DNA of 62,693 bases from Pyrinomonadaceae bacterium (GTDB lineage: Bacteria; Acidobacteriota; Blastocatellia; Pyrinomonadales; Pyrinomonadaceae), in contig JAJQRF010000007.1 of NCBI GenBank assembly GCA_021228405.1, forward strand, positions 1 to 62,693, written 5' to 3'. This document shows, piece after piece, positions 43,569 to 59,494 of the stretch. Under the pieces are notes generated by a model that saw only the letters and a program-made list of their open reading frames with translations, searched no databases and was not told where the DNA came from. The position numbers and the translations under genes were made by a program. Numbering within the stretch: the first letter of the stretch is position 1; each line of letters opens with the position of its first letter.

Positions 43569-44879
43569 ATGCCCAGAAAAAAGAATCTGCCGCGTTATGT
43601 CGTCCTGAAAACCTATTACGGCAAAAAGCATTGGTATGTCCGCCGCACGTTTCCGACCGCCGAGTTCTATCCGAACGGTCAGCGCGTGTATATCGAGATG
43701 GTCACGAAATGCGAACCCGAAACCGCCGAACGCGCCGCCGAGCTTTCCGCCTGGCTCGTCGAAGAGTTCAACCGTCAAAAGGCAAAGACGGTCAGCAACA
43801 CGCCCGATCCGACCGTTTCGGTTTATTTGAACGAATATCTCGAAATAATAAAACCGAAACTGTCACGCCGAACGCACGAAGATTATTCAGAGATTCACAA
43901 AAGATATATTAAGAACACAATCGGCAAATTGAAGATTGCGAAACTTGCGCCGCTGGACGTGCAGAAACTTTACTCCGCGCTTTCGGCAAAAGGAATTTCG
44001 GGCGGCGTGGTCAGAAAGGTTCACTCGCTGTTGTTTCAGGCATTAAAACAAGCCGTGAAGTGGCAAAAAACGGAAATAAATGCGGCTGAAGATGCGATCT
44101 TGCCGAAACTCACGCACATCGACAAAGCGGCAATGTCCAAAGAAGAGCTTGCGAAATTTATCGGCTACTGCAAAAAATCGTTGAAAAATCTCGTTTTCTG
44201 GTTCGCGCTCGAAACGGGTTTCCGTCCCGGTGAATATCTCGCCTTGCGATGGTCGGACATCGATCTCGAAACCTGCGTTGTCAGACTCGACCGCGCCGTT
44301 TCGTTTGCGCGGTCCGGCGGGAACCCTGAATTCAAGGAGCTCAAAACATCCTTTTCGCGCCGTTCGGTCAAACTTACGCGCGAGCTTACCGACGCGCTTT
44401 GCGGTTTGAAAAAATCGCAGGAAGCGCAAGAGGCGGAGTTGAAAGCGAAGATTTTACGATTTCGGAATGTTCAAAAACAATTTACGCCGCATAAAAAGAA
44501 AATCTCGTCACGCGGCGGAATGTTCTCGAACCGAAAAAAGCGGGAGCAGATTATCGAAAACACGCACGAACACCTTAAAAATATCAAGGAGCTCGATCTC
44601 GTCTTTCCGGGTCGAAAAGGCAAGCCGCGATCGATGCTCAACCTCAATCGGCGCGAATTGAAGGAAATTTTGAAAGCGTGCGGGATCGACCCTCGAAAAT
44701 ATTCGCTTTATTCGTTGCGCCATACTTGCCTGACGCAGATGTCGCACGTTTTAACGGTCAGGGAATTGCAGGATTTTGCGGGTCACGCGTCGATCACGAC
44801 GACCTTAAAGTTTTACGTCCACGCGTCCGACGATGCCAAGGCGAAAGCGGCGGACGCGTGGAGCAGTATAATTTCGTAA
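43569..44879 (+). CDS. int: Tyrosine recombinase (phage integrase)
   Basis: 436 residues. An arm-binding N-terminus and the SAM-like core-binding domain (about 75-170, TVSVYLNEYLEIIKPKLSRRTHEDY) precede the catalytic domain. Active-site residues are Arg I in TGFRPGEYLALRWSDI (R219), box II YSLRHTC (R384, with Tyr381 where His is usual), FAGHASITTT (H406) and the nucleophile in KFYVHA (Y416). A Lys-rich insert (about 285-345) lengthens the catalytic domain relative to most integrases. It catalyses site-specific integration and excision, here presumably at tRNA-Phe. It is convergent with the tail genes. Confidence 0.94.
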   Translation: MPRKKNLPRYVVLKTYYGKKHWYVRRTFPTAEFYPNGQRVYIEMVTKCEPETAERAAELSAWLVEEFNRQKAKTVSNTPDPTVSVYLNEYLEIIKPKLSRRTHEDYSEIHKRYIKNTIGKLKIAKLAPLDVQKLYSALSAKGISGGVVRKVHSLLFQALKQAVKWQKTEINAAEDAILPKLTHIDKAAMSKEELAKFIGYCKKSLKNLVFWFALETGFRPGEYLALRWSDIDLETCVVRLDRAVSFARSGGNPEFKELKTSFSRRSVKLTRELTDALCGLKKSQEAQEAELKAKILRFRNVQKQFTPHKKKISSRGGMFSNRKKREQIIENTHEHLKNIKELDLVFPGRKGKPRSMLNLNRRELKEILKACGIDPRKYSLYSLRHTCLTQMSHVLTVRELQDFAGHASITTTLKFYVHASDDAKAKAADAWSSIIS

Positions 44880-47181: not shown

Positions 47182-48864
47182 TTATATTTCTTGCAAAGTA
47201 AACTTTCGCGTGTCGGCAGTCGATTCGGGCGAATAGTCCGTCGCCTCGACGACCTCGAAACTTTTTGCGTCGAAACCGCCGTCCGCGTGTGTGAGCGTGA
47301 TTTCGTCGCCCTTGATGACCTGATACATCAATGCCGTGCCGTCGAATTCGACGACCGTATCTTTGACCGCAACATCGACGATCCTCTGCAAAACTTTTCG
47401 CGCCTGCCAGCGCGTCATATTTTGCAGATCGACGGGCTCGCCGTAAATCTTTCTATTTCCTGCCGCTTCGACGAGTTCGGGCACTTCGATGGTGACGGGC
47501 GAGAGCGGTTCTTCGATATATTGTGAATCGAGATCGCCGAACTTAGCTTCCCAGACGTTGCGGATTTCGGACACGCGCCGGTCCGTGCGCGAAATCGTGA
47601 TCTTATCGCCCAAGATATGCCCCGCGCCTTCCGCCGCATCGAACGTCGAAGTTCTCTGCTCGATGCACATAAATTCCATTTTCCCGTCCACGTCCTGACG
47701 AATCGAATTTGACACAAGCAAAAGCACACGCTCCATTTCGTCGAAAGAAGTCGGAGTCGAGAAGGCGATATGCGCTTCATAACGCGGCTTTTCTTCAGGT
47801 AACGGATAAAGCACTTCGGGCGGAATGATTTCCTCGGTTTGCGATGCAGAACTCCACAAAAGACGGAATTCGCCCGGTCCGCCCCCTTCGTTCCACTGCA
47901 CCTCAATACTGTAAAAATTCCCTGCCGTGAGCGCGATCGTGCCCGTGTCGGTCGCGGCGGGAGATTGTCCGTCGTTTTGCCAGTTGCTGATAATCTCCGT
48001 GCCGTTTATCCAGAGCCGCGCGCCGTTGTCGTGAACGATCTTGAAAGTATAGGTTTCGGTGTAAAGCGGTTTGATCTTACCTTCCCAGTGCACCGAAAAA
48101 TTATCGGTCGGGATGCCGACTGCCGGCGCGCCGTTTGAGAGATTGAATTCGATGACGGGATCGACGCGCTTTGATAAAAGAGTATCGAAAGCCGTTCCGG
48201 AATAATATTTCGCGGTCAGACCGAAGCCGTCGAATCCCGTGATCGAAGTGTAATCGACCGTTTCGAGCTCGTTGCAGTAATCGCGCCACGCCGTCCATTT
48301 TTGCCAGTTGAAATCATTGCGCTTCGCATCGAATGCGTATTTGAAATACCAACCCGCATAGACGCGCGCGGGATTCGCCGTGTAAGTAAAATAATCTTCG
48401 TCGAGCGGGTCATCGAACCCGCCCACGATGTCGCCGTCTTCGGGTGCGATCTGATTGCCGTTTTCGTCAAAATCGGGAAAAAGCTCGCATTTGAAAATTC
48501 CCGTCAGCCCGTCGGGAGTGTTGTTTTTCGTGTCCGCTTCGCCGACTCCTACGGGAAGTTTGGCGGCAAGCGTGACGGTGCGGAAATGCGGCACGTCCGT
48601 ATCGAAATAGGGCGGCGGCGTTGTTTGCAGTCCGTTTTGAAATTGATAATCGGAAGCAGGGATATTCAGACCGCGAAACCAAACGCCTTCCGCGCCGAGC
48701 CACGTTCCGCGCCCCAAAGCGTGAAGCAGATAGATATTATGTGCCGGCGACGTGCCGACCGTGTATGACCAAAGCAGATGACCCGCCGCGACGTGTTTGC
48801 CCGATGCGACCGCGAGCACCTTTCTCTGTGCCTCGACATTGCGGATGTGATTAATCAGTGCCAT
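47182..48864 (-). CDS. Phage tail hub/tip protein with PA14 domain
   Basis: 560 residues. The N-terminal half (GRGTWLGAEGVWFRGLNIPASDYQF...) and the C-terminal part (RWQARKVLQRIVDVAVKDTVVEFDGT...FEVVEATDYSPES) look like a tail-hub protein of the gpJ/gp27 type. Between them, residues about 218-350 form a PA14 domain: GLTAKYYSGTAFDTLLSKR, FSVHWEGKIKPLYTETYTFK, DNGARLWINGTEII and FYSIEVQWNEGGGPGEFRLLW. PA14 domains bind carbohydrate, so this may be an adhesion module. The start overlaps the stop of the upstream gene by one base (TAATG). Confidence 0.7.
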   Translation of the reverse strand: MALINHIRNVEAQRKVLAVASGKHVAAGHLLWSYTVGTSPAHNIYLLHALGRGTWLGAEGVWFRGLNIPASDYQFQNGLQTTPPPYFDTDVPHFRTVTLAAKLPVGVGEADTKNNTPDGLTGIFKCELFPDFDENGNQIAPEDGDIVGGFDDPLDEDYFTYTANPARVYAGWYFKYAFDAKRNDFNWQKWTAWRDYCNELETVDYTSITGFDGFGLTAKYYSGTAFDTLLSKRVDPVIEFNLSNGAPAVGIPTDNFSVHWEGKIKPLYTETYTFKIVHDNGARLWINGTEIISNWQNDGQSPAATDTGTIALTAGNFYSIEVQWNEGGGPGEFRLLWSSASQTEEIIPPEVLYPLPEEKPRYEAHIAFSTPTSFDEMERVLLLVSNSIRQDVDGKMEFMCIEQRTSTFDAAEGAGHILGDKITISRTDRRVSEIRNVWEAKFGDLDSQYIEEPLSPVTIEVPELVEAAGNRKIYGEPVDLQNMTRWQARKVLQRIVDVAVKDTVVEFDGTALMYQVIKGDEITLTHADGGFDAKSFEVVEATDYSPESTADTRKFTLQEI

Positions 48865-49952
48865 TAAACTAAAATCTCCGGCTGTTTCGTGTTATGCACC
48901 GCGAAACGGTTCGCGAAATAATTTTGATTTCTTTCGACGTGAAAATTGTAAACCTCCGTCACGATGCCCGAATTCCAACGTTTTTTTCTAAGCTTCACAA
49001 GTTTCCATCTGCCCGACGTGAATCGCCGGAACTTATCGCCGCAAACCATCTCATCGACGCGCACGAATTCGCCCGATTCCGACAGGAACGGATGCTCGTA
49101 AGTGACGTGCGCGAATCCATCCTCGAATAAAAGGGAGTAATATCCCGTCACGAAATGTTTGAAAACTTCTTTGACGGTATCGATTTCGATCTCGCGGGTC
49201 TGCGGGTTGAACGAATAAACCTGAAAGCCTTTCTTTATTTTTTCGATGCCGATCTCGCCGCGCGGCGTAAAAACAAGCGTTCCTTTCAAAAAACACGAAC
49301 CCGTGCCGATGCCCGTGCCGGGATTGCCGCCCGAACCGGGCGAACTTTGTGTCGGATTGTCGGGAAATGTGAAACCGCCGTTGTGTTCGGTGTTATTGCG
49401 TCCGCGACATCCCGCCTTCGATTTCAATTGCAGATTGCAGGTCGTTTCCGTGCCTGTGTATTTGCACGTCAAAGGGTCTTTGAAAACCCACGCGCACGTT
49501 GGCGAAAGCGTCTGCGTTGCGAGGCACACGCCCGATGCGGTCGTTTTCGGGATAACATCGAACGTCAAAGACGTTTCCGACGATTCCGCACCGACGAGCT
49601 TTCCGCCGAAAAAATGTTTGTGAAAAAACGTCGTCGGATTGCCGATCTCGCGGTAAAGCCGTTTGATCTGCACGTCCGCTAGTTCAAGTTTCCGCAAAGA
49701 CGAGGCGAGCAGAACCGACCAGGCGCGGTCAATATTGGATATTTCGACCGAAACGCGGTTTGTCGATGCACCGCCCGATTCTTTAAGGTCGCCCGTTCTG
49801 ATTAAAAGCGGCTGATACGTGTTTCCGCTCAAAACAAGCGGAACGGGCGCGAAACGATGCACCGTGTCGTCGCGCAAAACCATTTCGACCGTGCTGAGTG
49901 TTTCGCACGCGGGAAGCAATTCTTCAAATTCGGGTGTCGTCGGTCTGGGCAT
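48864..49952 (-). CDS. Phage minor tail protein L-like with C-terminal intein/Hint domain
   Basis: 362 residues. Residues 1-200 resemble phage minor tail protein L: the cysteine series CAWVFKDPLTC (C153, C163), C172 and GCRGRNN (C182) matches the iron-sulfur-type Cys pattern of that family. A Gly/Ser/Pro linker (201-219) leads into a Hint domain. Its block A is CFLKGTLVFTPRG (C220), block B is VTYEHPF (T284, H287), and the end is VYNFHVERNQNYFANRF followed by AVHN (H353, N354) before T355. All autocatalytic residues needed for splicing or cleavage are present, and only eight residues (TKQPEILV) follow. The start abuts the tape measure stop. Confidence 0.8.
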   Translation of the reverse strand: MPRPTTPEFEELLPACETLSTVEMVLRDDTVHRFAPVPLVLSGNTYQPLLIRTGDLKESGGASTNRVSVEISNIDRAWSVLLASSLRKLELADVQIKRLYREIGNPTTFFHKHFFGGKLVGAESSETSLTFDVIPKTTASGVCLATQTLSPTCAWVFKDPLTCKYTGTETTCNLQLKSKAGCRGRNNTEHNGGFTFPDNPTQSSPGSGGNPGTGIGTGSCFLKGTLVFTPRGEIGIEKIKKGFQVYSFNPQTREIEIDTVKEVFKHFVTGYYSLLFEDGFAHVTYEHPFLSESGEFVRVDEMVCGDKFRRFTSGRWKLVKLRKKRWNSGIVTEVYNFHVERNQNYFANRFAVHNTKQPEILV

Positions 49953-52900
49953 TTAGTTTAAAATCCCCCGCTTGAATGTTTCGTTATTAATCGCATCTTG
50001 TTCCACGCCTTTCACGATCACTTTTTGACCTGTGGACGTTTGACCGCCCATCACGAAAATTTTCGTCGCATCGTCTTTGCCGACCGACACGGTTAAACTG
50101 CTGATCTCAATCACAATCGGCTGATTTCCGCCCGCAATGTTTTGGTTTGCGAATCCACTCACGACCCCGCCGTCCGCAAAACGCGGCATCGTGTCTTTTT
50201 TCGGATAACGCGGAACTCCGATGTGCTGGAGCGGATCAAATCCGACCAAAGCCCGCATTCTCGCAATGTGCGCGGGATTCAAAACGACTTCGCCTTTTGA
50301 TAATCTCGCAAGAATATCGTCTTTGCCGTCGAAAATGCCCGGAATGAATCCGCCCGTCGAAAATTCGGGTAAAATCCGCCGGTTGCGGTCGTTTGCCGCC
50401 CGCGCCATATCCGCCGCGTCGCGAAGCTGGGCGATGATCGAATCGGCTTCGGAAAGTTTTCCTTGAATTTGTTGAGCCGAAACTTTTTGATACTTTTTAC
50501 TCTGCCAGTTCAAGCCGAAGCCCGACGCGATCGCTTGCCGCAATTCCTGCGCTTTTGAAAGTGCCGAATCGGGATCGACACGCAAAGATTTCGTATCCTG
50601 CAAAAGCTGTCTGAGTTGCTGTAAAGCGTCCGCAAAACCCGATTGCAGTTGCGGCAATTGCGCTTTGTCCGCTTTTCGTTTCGGGTCGCCCGAAAACAGA
50701 CCGATCAGCGCACCTGCCGCCGCGCCGATGCCCGCACCGATGGGACCGAACATCGCCCCGATCTGTGCGCCCGTTCCCGCCATCGATAAAATGCCGCCGA
50801 ACCTGCCGCCGATCAAACCGCCCGCTAAACTTGCCAGACCGCCGATGCCGCCCATAATCCCGCCGAGTCCCGACGTGCCGCCGAAAACCGTTTTTTGCGG
50901 TGCGAAGATGCCGCCCTGACGCGTCGAGAAAAGGTTTTTCAGATTTCCGAAGATTCCGCCGCCGCCCGTGTTAAAGCCCGCATTCGGCACGTCCCAGATT
51001 GAACGCAGTCCGCCTGTAAAAGGCGCGAGTCCCGCCGGATTGTTCGCAAAGAAATTTCCGGTCGAAGACAATTGATTTGCAGGAACATTTCCGCTTGTAA
51101 ATTGTCGATAATTAGGGTTAAAAGGTGGCGTTCCGATATTTCTGCCGCCACCAAAAATCGAACCGAAAATGCCACCGATTGGGTTTCCGCTAAGAATACC
51201 GCCTGAGTTATTACTTCCAGTCGCGCCGCCTATACCGCCACCGAAAATATTAAAAATTTTCGATGTCAGCCATTGCGCCGCCATATCGAGAAGCATATCT
51301 CTCCATCTTTGAGCAATATTTTTGAAGAAACCGCCAAATCTTTCCGAGAGAGATTTGCCTTGCTCAGTTAAAATATCAAGCGAATCTCTGACTAAACCGA
51401 AAGTTTCATCAAATGCTTTTCGATATTCTTCCTGTGCATCTTTTGCGGCTTTTAGGCGATCAACTTCCTCTGCTTTAGCTTCTAAAACCTTTTTCATTTC
51501 AGGTGTGAGGTTTTTATAAGCGTCGGTTTGAAGCATTTTAGCCAAAGCGTCCGCTCTTGATATTTCCGCTGAATAGCCGAGTTCGACATTTAACTTTTGA
51601 ATTTCACTGTCTAAATCATCAACGACATTTTTATATGTCGAAAGATTTTCCGAATTAGCGGCTTTATTAACTGCATTAAAAAGATAGATCAGTTCATTCG
51701 CCGTTTCTTTATTACCGCCTTCACCTTCAAAGAACGACGTAAACGACACTTCGCCGTCGGACTGCACTTTCTGACGAATTGTCCGCATATACTCAACAAA
51801 ATTTGCGTGCCAATCGTCGATAATCTTTTGAGTTTTAATTTTTAGTTGTTCGCTGATTTGCTCAGGATCGCCGATGGCGGCAGATGCCCAATCATTAATA
51901 TTTGCCAAGTCCCGTTGGAAAGTTAATATTCTTTTTTCGATTTGATTTGCAATGCCGTTATTGTCGAGTTTTTCGCCTGCGACGGTAAACAATTCAATTC
52001 CTTTCAAAAGTTCACGGATTTTACCCTGAAAAGGCGACACATCTACTTGGCTTAACTCTTCAATTGATTGTCTTGATGATTTAAGCGAATCAACAAACTG
52101 CTTAGTGCTCGCCCCTGCTTTATCATATTCTCTGGATAGTGCAAGCAATCTCAGAGCTTCGCGGGTTTGGTTAATTTCAAAAGCCAGACCTTTAAATTCC
52201 AAACCGCTTTGATTCACTTTTCGATTAAACTCATCAAGTTCGGAAGGATTTGCAAACTGAAGTTTGAATTCCGCATCTTCTCTAACTTGACGAACTTCAT
52301 CGGCAAAAGATTCAAAACGTTTATTGAAGTCATCTTGTGCCTGTTTATTAGCTTTGAGAACATCTAAAGACTTCGCCGCTTCAACTGCAAACTTTGCCCA
52401 ACCTTGCGAAAAATCCGTAATCCCTCTGCCAAGTAACTGCTGTTTGACCGCCGCTTCTTCGGTTTCGTTCCCAAAGAATCGAACCTGCAATGAAAGGTTT
52501 TTGGTAAGGTCTGATGCAAATTTACATTGCTCGTTGAGGGCTTTCATTTTTGCGACAGCTTTATCAATTTTTAACTGGTCATCAATCGCTTTGAGGTCTT
52601 TAGTTTTCTGTGCGGTTTTATCAAGTTCGGCATTGAATTTTTTAGCCAAATCAACCATTCCTGATTTAACGATGTCGGGAATGCCGCTAAACACTTTTCC
52701 GCCCGTGATCGCGTCAAACTGTCCGCGCAAAAAGTCAATACCAAGAAAACCAACTCCTGACCATTCACCTTTGACAGTTTTTGCGAAGATACTTGCAAAA
52801 CCTTTCCCCGTTAATTCTGCGATGGTCGGAACGGTTTTTGCGAGTCCTTCGCCAATGTATTGAGCGATTAATGAGCCGATTGCTTCAAAATCACCGCCTT

Positions 52901-54128
52901 TGCTTTGAATCTCATCTGCAAATCGCACAGCGACAGATGAAATCTTATCGAAAAGCGGTTGAAAAGCAGTATTAGCAGTAATGAGAAGTGTGTCTTTAAT
53001 ATTAGACATCGCGCCGGAAAGCGTGCGCGATTGTTTTTCCATTGCATCGCCAAACTTTTGCTGAGATATTTGCTGTAAAGCCTGAACCATAACGCTGGAG
53101 GAAATTTTTCCCTGCTCGGCAAGTTTTCTGAGTTCGGCTTGAGGTTTTCCGGTTGCTTCAGATAGCAGTTGAAAACCATTGATGCCGCGTTCGGCAAGTT
53201 GTTCCATTTCTTCAGCAGACACTTTCTGCTTAGAAATCATTTGCGTGATTGCCACCGTGACACCTTCAAGTCTTTCCTGACTGGTTTCTCCTGTTGCCGC
53301 AACGATATTTCCGATGTCGCGCATTAAAGGGATAATTTTTTCCGCTTCGACATTTGCCCCTAAAAAACGTTGTGAAAGTTGTGTGAGTCCGCCAAACTCA
53401 AACGGAGTAGATTTTGAAAATTGTTGAATTTCCTGTAAAAGTTTATTGGCTTTTTCGCCGTTTCCGAGAAGAGTTGTGAAGCCAATTTTTGTTTGTTGCA
53501 GTTTAGAACTGTAATCAAGCCACGCCGCCGCACCTTCTTTCGCTAAACTGATAGTTTGAGCAACTGCATCGGCGGCGAGATTGCCCGTGAAAGACGCTAT
53601 ACTGCCTCTTTCAATTTTGCTATTAGTTGAGGGAAGGAAATTAGATCGCGTTGCTCTGGCTTTCTCACGTTCAAGTCTAACGAATTCCTGATATTCACGC
53701 TTTTTCGCGTTTTCGGCGGCGCGTGCGGCTTGAATTGATTCCTGTGCGTGTCTGCGTGCCGTAATTTCAGCAATTCGAGCTTTACTTTTTTCGGCTTCGG
53801 CAAATTTCCTTGCTTCTGCCGTTACAATTGCGGTTTTTTGGCGAGAAGCATCTTGTTGCTGTTTAATTTCACTGCGAACTTGATCGTAAACCAGTCTCTG
53901 GTGTTTTTTTGATAAATTATTTATCTCCGAATATTGTTTTTTTATTTCTTCAATATTTACCAGACCGCCGCCAGATGCTTTTACGGAATTATCGAAACCG
54001 GAAAAATTGCCGTTTGAATTCATACTTTTGAGGCGCAAAAATTCTTTTTGCAAGCGATCAACAGACGCTTTTACTTTTGCCTCAAGCAATGACATATCAC
54101 CGTCAAATCTGATTTTGGTAACTTTCAT
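49953..54128 (-). CDS. Tape measure protein
   Basis: 1391 residues, which by the usual 1.5 A per residue rule suggests a tail about 200 nm long. The N-terminus is coiled coil (to about 165). The tape measure domain follows (LQQTKIGFTTLLGNGEKANKLLQEIQQFSKSTPFEFGGLTQLSQRFLGANV... to about 350). A long helical rod comes next. The Gly/Ala-rich membrane-inserting segment (GGIMGGIGGLASLAGGLIGG...AAGALIGLFSG) is at about 1090-1170, and the C-terminus has STGGFIPG...ILARLSKGEVVLNPAHIARM. The first ~970 codons are clearly more AT-rich than the rest, with a sharp change near 51100-51250. Confidence 0.93.
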   Translation of the reverse strand: MKVTKIRFDGDMSLLEAKVKASVDRLQKEFLRLKSMNSNGNFSGFDNSVKASGGGLVNIEEIKKQYSEINNLSKKHQRLVYDQVRSEIKQQQDASRQKTAIVTAEARKFAEAEKSKARIAEITARRHAQESIQAARAAENAKKREYQEFVRLEREKARATRSNFLPSTNSKIERGSIASFTGNLAADAVAQTISLAKEGAAAWLDYSSKLQQTKIGFTTLLGNGEKANKLLQEIQQFSKSTPFEFGGLTQLSQRFLGANVEAEKIIPLMRDIGNIVAATGETSQERLEGVTVAITQMISKQKVSAEEMEQLAERGINGFQLLSEATGKPQAELRKLAEQGKISSSVMVQALQQISQQKFGDAMEKQSRTLSGAMSNIKDTLLITANTAFQPLFDKISSVAVRFADEIQSKGGDFEAIGSLIAQYIGEGLAKTVPTIAELTGKGFASIFAKTVKGEWSGVGFLGIDFLRGQFDAITGGKVFSGIPDIVKSGMVDLAKKFNAELDKTAQKTKDLKAIDDQLKIDKAVAKMKALNEQCKFASDLTKNLSLQVRFFGNETEEAAVKQQLLGRGITDFSQGWAKFAVEAAKSLDVLKANKQAQDDFNKRFESFADEVRQVREDAEFKLQFANPSELDEFNRKVNQSGLEFKGLAFEINQTREALRLLALSREYDKAGASTKQFVDSLKSSRQSIEELSQVDVSPFQGKIRELLKGIELFTVAGEKLDNNGIANQIEKRILTFQRDLANINDWASAAIGDPEQISEQLKIKTQKIIDDWHANFVEYMRTIRQKVQSDGEVSFTSFFEGEGGNKETANELIYLFNAVNKAANSENLSTYKNVVDDLDSEIQKLNVELGYSAEISRADALAKMLQTDAYKNLTPEMKKVLEAKAEEVDRLKAAKDAQEEYRKAFDETFGLVRDSLDILTEQGKSLSERFGGFFKNIAQRWRDMLLDMAAQWLTSKIFNIFGGGIGGATGSNNSGGILSGNPIGGIFGSIFGGGRNIGTPPFNPNYRQFTSGNVPANQLSSTGNFFANNPAGLAPFTGGLRSIWDVPNAGFNTGGGGIFGNLKNLFSTRQGGIFAPQKTVFGGTSGLGGIMGGIGGLASLAGGLIGGRFGGILSMAGTGAQIGAMFGPIGAGIGAAAGALIGLFSGDPKRKADKAQLPQLQSGFADALQQLRQLLQDTKSLRVDPDSALSKAQELRQAIASGFGLNWQSKKYQKVSAQQIQGKLSEADSIIAQLRDAADMARAANDRNRRILPEFSTGGFIPGIFDGKDDILARLSKGEVVLNPAHIARMRALVGFDPLQHIGVPRYPKKDTMPRFADGGVVSGFANQNIAGGNQPIVIEISSLTVSVGKDDATKIFVMGGQTSTGQKVIVKGVEQDAINNETFKRGILN

Positions 54129-54187: not shown

Positions 54188-54736
54188 ATGAAAATAATTT
54201 CCACTTGTCTTTTTTTTCTTTTATTCTCACAAGTTTGTTATTCGCAAACTTGTAATATTCCTTCCCTGCGCGGTCTCAAACTCGGAATGACAGCGCAAGC
54301 GGTAGATAGTCTTTTTGCTGTTGAAGATGACACGATTTATTTTGACGATGCACAGTATCAGTTATCTTTTACACGTAATAAACTGATAAAAATTTCGGTC
54401 GATTATCTACAGCCAAAATGGAGTGATATTCGCCAATTCACGGAAGCATATTCCGCTGAACTCGGTTTGCCGAACGATTGGCAGAGCGTTCAAGATGTCT
54501 CACGTCTAAAACAATTGGAAAAGAAACGTGCTGAATTAATAGCTAAATACACGCCTGAATATTTTCAAGTCCAACAGATTGACCGTGAAATTGAAGTCTT
54601 GAAATCTAATTCTTTCACTGTCTTGAAATGCCCAACTTTTACCGTTTCGGCAAAACTCAACAAACAAGACGAAGCGCAAGTAATTTTGCGGCTCACAAAT
54701 CGTGTCAATTCAAAGAGCGGTAAATTCAAACCTTAA
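54188..54736 (+). CDS. Secreted moron protein encoded on the prophage
   Basis: 182 residues. A signal peptide (ISTCLFFLLFSQVCYSQ) is followed by NIPSLRGLKLGMTAQAVDSLF, a short motif seen at the start of small SmpA/BamE-like and other secreted domains (G-x-x-L-G-M-T). A coiled-coil section (LKQLEKKRAELIAKYTPEYFQVQQIDREIEVL) and a beta end (FTVSAKLNKQDEAQVILRLTN) follow. It lies between the tail chaperone and tape measure genes on the opposite strand, with its own promoter and AT-rich composition. This is the standard description of a moron expressed in the lysogen. Its function in host change is unknown. Confidence 0.75.
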   Translation: MKIISTCLFFLLFSQVCYSQTCNIPSLRGLKLGMTAQAVDSLFAVEDDTIYFDDAQYQLSFTRNKLIKISVDYLQPKWSDIRQFTEAYSAELGLPNDWQSVQDVSRLKQLEKKRAELIAKYTPEYFQVQQIDREIEVLKSNSFTVLKCPTFTVSAKLNKQDEAQVILRLTNRVNSKSGKFKP

Positions 54737-55108
54737 TTATTTGAGAAGCTGCTGAATTACGCGATTGGTTTGTTGTCTTTCAAGTCGATCAATTTCTTTT
54801 TCTACATATCTCCAAGTCGCATAGAGTTTGAGAATTTCAAAAGAATATACTGACCAATCCGTTTTGAATCCCGCATTTTCCCAAAAAACTAAATTTTCAA
54901 TTTCCTCAAAAAGTTCGCTTTTCTGCGAAAAGTTATTTTTACTCGGCAAAAGTTCGCAATTAACACAAGCATCTAGCCCGTTACCTGTTTCACTTTTTGC
55001 TATCGCAAACTTTCCGCAGCTTTCTTCGCCCGGACAGGTTTTCTCGGTTTCAAGAAATCCCGCATTTTCAAAAAGTCTTTTGTGAATTTCAGCAGACGCT
55101 TCTGCTAC
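54737..55108 (-). CDS. Tail chaperone frameshift extension (gpT-like), -1 frame
   Basis: An open frame of 123 codons without a start codon at its beginning. It opens exactly where the tail chaperone frame ends, one base back: after the slippery A-AAA-AAG the -1 frame reads VAEASAEIHKRLFENAGFLE and goes on to TAA at 54737. Four cysteines (CPGEESC and CVNC) suggest a metal-binding knuckle. An ATG within it at 54949 has no good ribosome binding site and would discard the Cys part. A fusion product of 352 residues is predicted. Such G/GT pairs assist tape measure folding and tail-tube assembly in siphophages, and this one lies between tail tube and tape measure as expected. Confidence 0.75.
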   Translation of the reverse strand, partial: VAEASAEIHKRLFENAGFLETEKTCPGEESCGKFAIAKSETGNGLDACVNCELLPSKNNFSQKSELFEEIENLVFWENAGFKTDWSVYSFEILKLYATWRYVEKEIDRLERQQTNRVIQQLLK

Positions 55109-55114
55109 TTTTTT
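55091..55114 (-). promoter_or_regulatory. Predicted -1 ribosomal frameshift site with hairpin
   Basis: The heptamer A-AAA-AAG (55114-55108, zero-frame codons as written) is the most slippery class known in bacteria (as in E. coli dnaX) and is followed immediately by the zero-frame stop TAG. One nucleotide beyond, AGCAGA-AGCG-TCTGCT (55106-55091) forms a perfect 6-bp hairpin. The hairpin is closer than the usual 5-8 nt, so its lower base pairs would have to open; its role is uncertain. Confidence 0.75.
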
Positions 55115-55794
55115 TCGTCAATTTTTGAAGCGAAAATATAATCGATGACTTTTACTTTGAATCTGAGCGGTGTAAAAGACTTAAAACCTGTCGAAGAAAC
55201 TAGCATTTCATCATATAATTCGCCGTATTTTTCATCTTGAGGCACATACCTTATCTTCGGTTTGCGGCTCAAACCTTTTGTTTTTTCAGTTTCAAAAGAC
55301 TTTCTCCGAATTTTGTCGTATTTTTTTGCAAATTCTAAAGTTTTAGACTGCATTGTGTGAGTTTGGGAAACCGGAAACCCGTTGAAAAATGCTTCTGTGA
55401 TAACAGTTTCCGTTTTTTGTTGAGTTAATTTTCGCTTTCCGTTCTGTGCGATTTCAGGCTCGACAATTACGACAGTTAAAAACATATTCATTGCATCGAC
55501 TTTTTCATCAATATCAATAAGCGACTTCCAGTCGTCGGATGGATCGACCTCAATATTTTCAACTTCTTTGATTTGCGCGTCCCACAACGCGGCGGTAATT
55601 AATTTATCGTTTGCGTCAACATTATCCGCATTTCCTTCAATGCTTACTGAATTAACGTGACTCAAATAATCTTTATCCGAAAGTGGATTGAAAACGTGTG
55701 CCGTATCAAATTTTTCGCCGTTTTCGGTAACGACTAGCGCGTATCTTTGAACTGCGTCAGCATCGTAAATGTTCATACTTTCTTGCTTTTCCAT
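55105..55794 (-). CDS. Tail assembly chaperone (gpG-like)
   Basis: 229 residues, acidic N-terminal half, basic C-terminal half (KKYDKIRRKSFETEKTKGLSRKPKIRY). There is no clear sequence family, but the position between the major tail protein and the tape measure, together with the frameshift signal at its end, identifies it as the tail assembly chaperone. The last codons are GAC GAA AAA AAG TAG. The composition is AT-rich relative to the tail tube gene upstream. Its ribosome binding site is poor, and just before it lies a nested pair of inverted repeats (55812-55874) that could control its translation. Confidence 0.7.
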   Translation of the reverse strand: MEKQESMNIYDADAVQRYALVVTENGEKFDTAHVFNPLSDKDYLSHVNSVSIEGNADNVDANDKLITAALWDAQIKEVENIEVDPSDDWKSLIDIDEKVDAMNMFLTVVIVEPEIAQNGKRKLTQQKTETVITEAFFNGFPVSQTHTMQSKTLEFAKKYDKIRRKSFETEKTKGLSRKPKIRYVPQDEKYGELYDEMLVSSTGFKSFTPLRFKVKVIDYIFASKIDEKK

Positions 55795-55901: not shown

Positions 55902-57050
55902 TTACGAACCGACGAACGTCGAAAAATCGGCAACGGGGCTGATGATTTCGAGTTCGAGCGGCATTACCGACGAAACGGCTTCGGGTTGCGTGGCGATCTG
56001 GATGCCGCGCACGCTGTCGATGGTCGGATAGGAAATCCCGCCGATCGTGAACTTATTGAGCGAGAACGTCGCCTTTTGATTGTAGATCGTCGCGCCGATG
56101 ATCTTGCCGAGAAACGTCCAGTCCGCTGACAACGCCGTGCCCGCTTCCATCAATGCTTCAAAATCCGCCGCCGCTTTGAGTTCGGGCGTTAATTTCGCCG
56201 AGAACTCGACCGCCGCGACCTGTTCGGTGATCGGCAATGAGCCGCGAATCTGCGCCGAGGTCGGATCGTTGTCGATCTGGAATTTCTGACAGCCCGAATA
56301 GCCGATTTCCATATTCAGATTTTCATTGATCGAAGCCTGAAAATTGTAAAAATCGCATCCGAGAGCATACGCCGTGCCGCCTTTCGACGGTTGCGAATAA
56401 ATGCTCATCGTGCCGTTTTCGGGAATTCTCTGCTCCGTGCCGAGTTCGCCTGAACCCGTGCCGATGACGTGCTTTCCCGATCCGAAAAACTTCACGTCGC
56501 CGGCTTCACGCTTGCCCGAACCGTGCCACGCGACATTCGCCGTCAAATACGGTTTTTCGGCATTGTGCGGTGTCGAAAACTGGATCGTTTCGACCTTGCA
56601 CCCGCGAAACTTTTTGTTATAAACCTCGTTCGACGAAAGCGCGGCTTCGTTGAGTTTGACCGCGAGCATCCACGCGGGAAGCTCCCGGACAAGTTGCGGA
56701 TTGAGCAATTTGAAGGTGTGGCGGTAAACGCCGGAAACAACCGCCGCGACGGTATAATCACCGAACGAACGATATGCCCAGAAGCCGAGTTCCTCGAACG
56801 TCAGAAAAATATCGAACGAGCCTGAAGCATCGGCGCGTCCTTTATTGTTTTTGGTCGAATAAGCCGAGCCCGTCGCTTCACCCTGGTTGCCGACGTTCGG
56901 ACTGGCGAATTCGGGAACGCTGATATAGCTTGCCGCGACTTCCTGACGAAAATTCGCCGGAGTCGTCGCGGGCGTAACGCCCGTATTATAGTCGCTCTGC
57001 GCGGGCGAAACCGCCATCACGCCTTGTGATTCCGTTACTGTAACTCCCAT
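55902..57050 (-). CDS. Major tail (tube) protein
   Basis: 382 residues, beta-rich with Gly, as expected for a siphophage tail tube subunit. The N-terminus MGVTVTESQGVMAVSPAQSD is followed by a strongly strand-forming middle (DASGSFDIFLTFEELGFWAYRSFGDYTV, LTANVAWHGSGKREAG). The C-terminal domain (PLELEIISPVADFSTFVGS) is Ig-like in style. Assignment rests on size, position just upstream of the chaperone/tape measure pair and composition; no exact family signature was recognised. The GC-rich composition contrasts with the next gene. Confidence 0.75.
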   Translation of the reverse strand: MGVTVTESQGVMAVSPAQSDYNTGVTPATTPANFRQEVAASYISVPEFASPNVGNQGEATGSAYSTKNNKGRADASGSFDIFLTFEELGFWAYRSFGDYTVAAVVSGVYRHTFKLLNPQLVRELPAWMLAVKLNEAALSSNEVYNKKFRGCKVETIQFSTPHNAEKPYLTANVAWHGSGKREAGDVKFFGSGKHVIGTGSGELGTEQRIPENGTMSIYSQPSKGGTAYALGCDFYNFQASINENLNMEIGYSGCQKFQIDNDPTSAQIRGSLPITEQVAAVEFSAKLTPELKAAADFEALMEAGTALSADWTFLGKIIGATIYNQKATFSLNKFTIGGISYPTIDSVRGIQIATQPEAVSSVMPLELEIISPVADFSTFVGS

Positions 57051-58780: not shown

Positions 58781-58831
58781 TGTTTTACTTTATAAAGCGT
58801 GAACGCTCGCTTTATACTGCTATATATAACA

Positions 58832-58860
58832 TTGATTTTTCGAGCTATCCCTAGTATAAT
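58832..58860 (+). promoter_or_regulatory. HNH gene promoter giving a leaderless mRNA
   Basis: TTGATT (58832-58837), a 17-bp spacer and perfect TATAAT (58855-58860). The ATG at 58868 is 7 nt after the -10, at the expected transcription start. Confidence 0.7.
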
Positions 58861-58867
58861 TTCCTTA

Positions 58868-59494
58868 ATGAATACCTTAAGAAAAAGAGCAGTCGAAAAA
58901 TACTACAATTCACCAAAACACTGCGTTCAATGTTCGGGAATAATTAAAATCGGTGAAAGCGAACCAGTTCGTTACGTCAGACGCAAGAAATTCTGTTCTC
59001 GAACTTGCTACATCAACTCCAAAACAGGTCAGCCTGTGGAAAACGCAAAATTCAGATATTTTGGAAAATCCAAAGATATTTTTTGCGCCAGATGTCAGGC
59101 TGTTTTCACTGTTCATCGAAACTCTAGCGGGGCTATACCTTCTCGCAAGGTTTGCGATTTCTGTTATAAAAACCCGCCCAGAAAGCCTTTTAGTGAAACC
59201 ATTGGCAAAATCGGCGATTTCACTAAATCCGAACTGTTTGTTAATCGAGCGTCTTACCAGTCCGCTCGGTCTGCTGTCAGAAAACACGCTGTTGCGATTT
59301 TTCAAACACATCATAAAACAAATAGTTGCCATATTTGCGGCTATGACAGACACATTCAAGTGGCTCATATCAAATCAGTTAGCAGTTTTAGCGGTGAAAC
59401 ATTAATTTCTGTAATTAATGACCCGAAAAATCTTGTCGGTTTATGCCCAAATCATCATTGGGAATTTGACCACGGTATTTTGTCAGTTATCTAA
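58868..59494 (+). CDS. Free-standing HNH endonuclease
   Basis: 208 residues from the ATG at 58868. The N-terminal part has Cys pairs of zinc-finger type (HCVQCSG, FCSRTCYINS, CARCQAVF, VCDFCYKN). The C-terminus is an HNH domain: CHICGYDRHIQVAHIKSVSSF, NDPKNLVGLCPNHHWEFDHG, with the metal- and catalysis-related His and Asn residues present. It is encoded opposite to the phage structural genes, is AT-rich, has its own promoter, is flanked by 10-bp direct repeats, and its stop codon lies at the edge of a tRNA 5' half. This fits a homing-type nuclease cassette. Confidence 0.85.
   Translation: MNTLRKRAVEKYYNSPKHCVQCSGIIKIGESEPVRYVRRKKFCSRTCYINSKTGQPVENAKFRYFGKSKDIFCARCQAVFTVHRNSSGAIPSRKVCDFCYKNPPRKPFSETIGKIGDFTKSELFVNRASYQSARSAVRKHAVAIFQTHHKTNSCHICGYDRHIQVAHIKSVSSFSGETLISVINDPKNLVGLCPNHHWEFDHGILSVI

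Follow-up and report, generated by a model that had tools for sequence, protein, structure and literature searches.

A predicted lambda G/GT-type programmed -1 frameshift with the slippery heptamer abutting the stop codon in tail assembly chaperone genes of Acidobacteriota phages

Programmed -1 ribosomal frameshifts of the G/GT type are described as widespread in tailed phages, and in phage lambda a short form of the chaperone is reported to coat the tape measure protein, and a rare, longer form to bring in the tail tube protein (PMC5009743). In the lambda genome (J02459, 9711-10549) G/GT occupies the slot between the major tail protein and the tape measure protein, the -1 shift takes place on an X-XXY-YYZ heptamer close to the 3' end of the gene for the chaperone, and the extension runs past the first stop codon. 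Annotated frameshifted or split chaperone genes are likewise located just before the tape measure gene in P2 (E/E'), N15 (gp14/15), and mycobacteriophage D29 (gp24/25), and HK97 (AF069529) carries the chaperone pair gp13/gp14. The heptamer is separated from the stop codon by 15 nt in lambda, 18 nt in P2, 15 nt in N15, 18 nt in D29 (our own reading), and 15 nt in HK97 (from G-GAA-AAG, read by analogy with the annotated heptamer of N15), and the mean distances reported with PRFect are 26 nt for the SEA-PHAGES set and 36 nt for the Xu set (PMC10885494). In the acidobacterial prophage locus described here gene slot, predicted shift and extension are the same as in lambda, whereas the distance between the heptamer and the stop codon is 0 nt. 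As read from the sequences, the locus is distinct in that the heptamer abuts the stop, the chaperone is duplicated, and the predicted extension bears cysteines.

The locus is located in a stretch of 62,693 nucleotides from a Pyrinomonadaceae bacterium (contig JAJQRF010000007.1, positions 1 to 62,693), hereafter the window, and belongs to a prophage on a contig of 279 kb within a genome of 5.7 Mb. The minus strand contains the zero frame of a tail assembly chaperone (gpG-like, 55105-55794, 229 aa) with GAC GAA AAA AAG TAG as its final codons. An earlier sequence-only reading had placed an in-phase slippery heptamer directly against the stop codon, and this is confirmed on the minus strand at 55105-55114: the heptamer A-AAA-AAG lies in zero-frame phase at 55108-55114 and is followed by the TAG stop (55105-55107) without an intervening base. 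The -1 frame, which encodes the gpT-like extension (54737-55108, minus strand), is open for 123 codons (54740-55108) and ends with TAA at 54737-54739. As had been claimed, this frame lacks a start of its own, the first ATG, GTG or TTG being a TTG at codon 54. The two frames overlap by only 10 nt, and slippage would produce a fusion of 352 residues (229 + 123) with the predicted lysine-rich junction ASKIDEKKVAEASAEIH.

To identify relatives, the zero frame of the window was used as a protein query against 195 related genomes, which resulted in 10 matches including the window itself, and a profile search of the class returned the same ten genomes (10/162). One of the ten loci is cut by the end of its contig; the other nine, whose 3' ends are readable and which belong to nine genomes in eight genera, form the class set. 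All nine contain an in-phase XXXYYYZ heptamer with zero spacer to the stop codon, followed by a -1 frame that is open over 123-147 codons, so that no readable relative in the class lacks the slippery run or the open frame, the observation by which the sequence-only reading had proposed to judge the frameshift. Since the search sequence included nothing of the extension and the search required no heptamer, the heptamer and the extension in the class set are independent evidence. The nine -1 extensions align as one family with variable C-termini.

A degenerate DNA pattern (heptamer, stop, CPGE-C, CxxC) matched a further eight IMG/VR contigs, which together with the class set give 17 members. A homologue of the zero frame is present in each of the eight, with a -1 frame that spans 121-138 codons; as these contigs were picked by the motif, they provide no independent evidence on the heptamer or the cysteine motif. 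The same pattern identified three true loci in genome contigs (the contigs of G013, G071, and G060), and two further pattern matches (L041 and L042) were judged to be chance, with zero frames of 21 and 61 codons and -1 frames of 33 and 27 codons. Protein-profile scans of IMG/VR recovered six loci, of which four (L043, L044, L046, and L078) were already present in the query alignment, one (L077) is a 100% copy of the query row L008, and the only new contig (L045) ends before the stop; the case for the heptamer thus gains nothing independent from these scans. The loci L016 and L045, both cut by a contig end, and repeat loci were left out of the counts. Scans of IMG/VR with one protein at a time (the window chaperone, the L009 extension, and the L014 extension) found no relative, and a tblastn search of 50,697 phage records with the window chaperone and the L009 extension gave no match. 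Among the matches listed in a literature search, no title concerned frameshifting in acidobacterial phages.

The slot between tail tube and tape measure, which the sequence-only reading had likened to that of lambda G/GT, was borne out in the window and in part of the relatives. Upstream on the minus strand lies a probable tail tube or major tail protein (55902-57050; a weak match to phrog_290, 'minor tail protein', E 5.7e-5) and downstream, on the same strand, a tape measure protein of 1391 aa (49953-54128; PF20155, E 9.3e-30; phrog_12798, E 2.5e-34). A BLAST comparison of the window proteins with 17 stretches identified a tail tube match on the upstream side of the chaperone in 12 stretches; in 6, a tape measure match follows directly downstream, several stretches ending before that position. 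PF20155 was found below E 0.001 in only one of the eight IMG/VR records (that of L031) and over the cut-off in none, and BLAST support to the tape measure of the window was present for the other IMG/VR records only in L035 and L036. The order in L035 is unusual: a gpL/Hint gene directly follows the extension, and the homologue of the tape measure gene is displaced downstream by about 4 kb. The prophage also carries an integrase (43569-44879), a lambda-D-like decoration protein, a phage capsid E-type protein, and an S49 protease.

Several neighboring genes are of separate interest. Between the extension stop and the tape measure gene, an opposite-strand gene (54188-54736, plus strand) is arranged tail to tail with the extension without a gap, and its product has a signal-peptide-like start as read from the sequence. 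A moron gene (gp15) occupies the same slot in HK97, between gp14 and the tape measure gene, and L049 has an antisense ORF there. Downstream of the tape measure gene, 48864-49952 (minus strand) encodes a lambda gpL-like tail protein (PF05100, below the curated cut-off) with a C-terminal Hint/intein-like domain (PT-HINT PF07591, E 3e-6) that ends in VHN-T. This protein is matched in L047, L048, L050, L051, L035, and L036, near full-length in L050 and L036, which suggests from the sequences that the Hint-like domain is kept in some relatives. The adjacent minus-strand gene (47182-48864) encodes a tail protein that matches the PA14 and GLEYA domains, possibly for carbohydrate binding, and an HNH endonuclease gene (58799-59494, plus strand; PF13391, E 5e-9) that sits between head and tail genes but on the other strand is possibly a homing or moron gene.

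The extension in the window contains four cysteines, at residues 25, 31, 48, and 51, within the motif CPGEESC...CVNC (54956-55036, minus strand). The columns C25, P26, G27, C31, C48, and C51 are invariant in the nine similarity-found extensions and in all 17, 8 of which were found with the cysteine motif in the query; the spacing varies, with C-x4-C in L008 and L011 and a seven-residue insertion between the last two cysteines in L015. The knuckle pattern noted by the sequence-only reading is thus present and shared among relatives, and the motif is a candidate zinc knuckle that may bind zinc. Lambda T as translated differs in that it contains no cysteine.

The same extensions bear on the possibility of translational coupling, in which ribosomes that stop at the UAG would re-initiate nearby and the extension would be a separate protein. 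A possible start (GTG, TTG or ATG) is located between the heptamer and the CPG motif in 9 out of 17 members. The window and seven other members lack an ATG, GTG or TTG in this interval (L011 has a GTG that sits far upstream in its long open -1 frame), and a scan of the window extension for ATG, GTG and TTG found none of these before codon 54, which lies past all four cysteines. Furthermore, coupling needs neither a heptamer nor its phase, yet both are conserved.

More distant homologues give coupling some ground outside the class set. Wider searches added five readable loci (G196, G407, G116, G392, and G560), resulting in 14 similarity-found readable loci, none of which has both parts fused in one frame; extension matches in G419 and G238 (E 8e-4) lie outside these 14. 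Overall, the spacer is 0 in 10 out of 14 loci, with UAG as the stop in 7 of the 10, and a canonical heptamer is located at most 3 nt from the stop in 11 out of 14. G196 contains the heptamer A-AAT-TTT (AAATTTT) directly before TAG (spacer 0) after a zero frame that is open for only 72 codons, and in G407 A-AAA-AAC is followed by one codon and then TAG (spacer 3 nt); both extensions keep the four cysteines and lack the CPG motif. In G116, which was found through its extension, the slippery sequence is reduced to an A-AAA quartet, located 9 nt ahead of the TGA stop. No slippery heptamer was seen in G392 (L079, 1324-2182), where the extension-like frame is separate, or in G560 (L091, 1054-1725), a weak extension match (E 1.1e-4). 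In G560 a TTG overlaps the zero-frame stop and is preceded by AGGAG, as read from the sequence; this TTG could start the extension, and it may hint at a switch between frameshifting and coupling. The outgroup may thus couple its two frames, while for the window and its close relatives coupling is very unlikely to explain the extension.

The heptamer itself changes within the class set while its phase and its contact with the stop are kept: AAAAAAG is found in three loci (the window, L010, and L011), GGGAAAG, which is lambda's own heptamer, in two (L008 and L015), GGGAAAC in two (L012 and L014), GGGAAAA in one (L009), and AAAAAAC in one (L013). Of the expected conservation of the A7 run and both frames, the frames are therefore kept in all nine loci and the A7 run is not, five of the nine having G-GGA-AAN instead. 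Runs of seven A occur in the window, L011, L032, and L036 and would suit transcriptional slippage on the A7 run in place of ribosomal slippage. However, no conserved long A or T run was found at the site in the similarity-found loci, and the five with G-GGA-AAN contain only three or four A with frame and stop kept. Polymerase slippage is not known to occur on runs as short as three or four A, and this explanation is very improbable. That two abutting frames are one gene split by decay or a sequencing error is the default reading and homopolymers are error-prone, but nine genomes from eight genera, as well as IMG/VR contigs that were assembled separately, are split identically and in an identical position with respect to the stop, and the extension is conserved as a protein, which makes the probability of this reading negligible.

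A chance check further indicated how specific the motif is to the chaperone. A total of 18 out of 598 mechanical ORFs (at least 100 codons, 20 stretches) carry (AAA or GGG)AAAN directly before the stop, and 17 of the 18 are the chaperone (8 of these 17 rows were selected with the motif and one locus was counted twice), compared with 1 out of 581 other ORFs.

The protein encoded by the zero frame was not recognized by family searches. Pfam contains no family for either window frame up to E 1, and among the aligned members only single-member matches (E 0.001-0.06) were found. In PHROGs, the zero frame of the window matched phrog_27212 (E 0.0053), and the single extensions L014 and L011 matched phrog_21202 (E 5e-5) and phrog_17146 (E 0.0045), all three of which are annotated with unknown function. 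A profile comparison of both frames with lambda G and T and the N15, P2, and D29 proteins gave no link, and a PDB sequence search with profiles of both frames returned nothing convincing. These results agree with the earlier statement that there is no obvious sequence similarity to known chaperones.

A profile-profile alignment of the two halves of the zero frame gave an hhalign probability of 96-97% (E 1e-9 to 1e-10), and the frame is therefore a tandem duplication, with two TAC-like domains at residues ~3-108 and 109-229. This differs from lambda G, which has 140 aa compared with 229 aa and two domains here, and from the HK97 chaperone, which has one domain. AlphaFold models were fair for both parts (zero frame pLDDT 85.5, pTM 0.83; extension 83.6, 0.63). 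Among 999 solved chains compared, the HK97 tail assembly chaperone 2ob9 ranked at the top, aligned with the first domain, but its score is weak (Z 4.4, rmsd 5.5, 93 residues aligned; next row Z 3.1), and according to the tool's own warning a Z under 8 may reflect a common arrangement. In sequence, HK97 shares no weighty similarity with the protein (hhalign probability 12% over 33 columns). A Foldseek search of the PDB with the zero-frame model gave nothing at E <= 0.001. Among the 50 BFVD matches listed, seven are named tail assembly chaperone (E 0.08-0.8, none below E 0.01) and two more are named tape measure chaperone, the nine together spanning E 0.08-0.9. The extension model is helical, and among the matches listed in its fold search none was of weight. 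The case for a G/GT-like mechanism is strong, membership by fold is only suggestive, and the profiles provide no sequence link to G or T.

Downstream of the heptamer, the sequence-only reading had pointed out a perfect 6-bp hairpin. This hairpin (AGCAGA-AGCG-TCTGCT, 55091-55106, minus strand) exists, begins 1 nt past the heptamer, and has a modest predicted stability of about -8 kcal/mol; its position is not common to most relatives, the first predicted stem beginning 5-8 nt past the heptamer in 9 out of 17 sites, and it is therefore not a conserved stimulator and probably not the main stimulator in the window. The predicted RNA stability at the 17 sites was compared with synonymous-codon shuffles of each extension, with the reservation that sites sharing ancestry are not fully independent. 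The 60 nt starting at +6 were more stable than the shuffled sequences in 15 out of 17 sites (mean z -2.26, whereas 51 control positions within these genes gave -0.44), and the nine similarity-found loci alone gave a combined z of -5.5. Windows of 40 nt showed a weaker signal (mean z -1.32 from +6, 12/17; -1.08 from 0, 14/17). Most members therefore have an excess of predicted structure downstream of the heptamer; exceptions are the window (z +0.22) and L011 (z +0.20), with no excess from +6.

Overall, the sequence comparison makes it very probable that the locus represents a lambda G/GT-type programmed -1 ribosomal frameshift; that ribosomes slip here in cells, and at what rate, is inferred. 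Most ribosomes would terminate at the UAG and produce the 229-aa chaperone, which would coat the tape measure protein. A minority would shift by -1 on A-AAA-AAG, either as the UAG enters the A site or shortly beforehand, and read AAA-AAA-GUA, resulting in the 352-aa form, whose cysteine-bearing helical extension would recruit tail tube subunits. This division of labor between the short and the long form is proposed by analogy with lambda.

The timing of the slip would be constrained by the abutting stop. As no zero-frame codon is left after the heptamer, the ribosome may slip with the last Lys or Asn tRNA in the A site. Alternatively, it may slip once translocation has moved the stop into the A site, which would couple the ratio of the two forms to the release factor; the A site would then contain a stop codon that is still unfilled, and the E and P sites the slippery codons. 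A tentative extension of the frameshift reading, which we consider possible but rather unlikely, is that termination is part of the signal, the balance of short and long chaperone being set by release factor 1 competing with -1 slippage. UAG is over-represented at the sites, with 12 out of 17 (6 out of 9 in the similarity-found loci) compared with 35 out of 188 (19%) long ORFs of the same stretches, a background that still includes the chaperone frames. This excess fits competition with release factor 1, but a coding need for Ala at the second residue of the extension could also explain it. If true, the competition would be the -1 counterpart of the +1 prfB switch and would link tail assembly to the release-factor supply.

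By comparative evidence, these results extend the G/GT tail-chaperone frameshift to phages of the Acidobacteriota and to a chaperone family that Pfam and PHROGs do not recognize. Ordinary gene callers are expected to give the short chaperone only and to lose the extension. The 18 natural zero-spacer sites (the 17 and G196), with seven different heptamers, would allow testing how -1 slippage responds to a downstream stem and to a stop codon in the A site. Furthermore, the divergent homologues seemingly express the second part by other means, and a switch between frameshifting and coupling could be traced through them.
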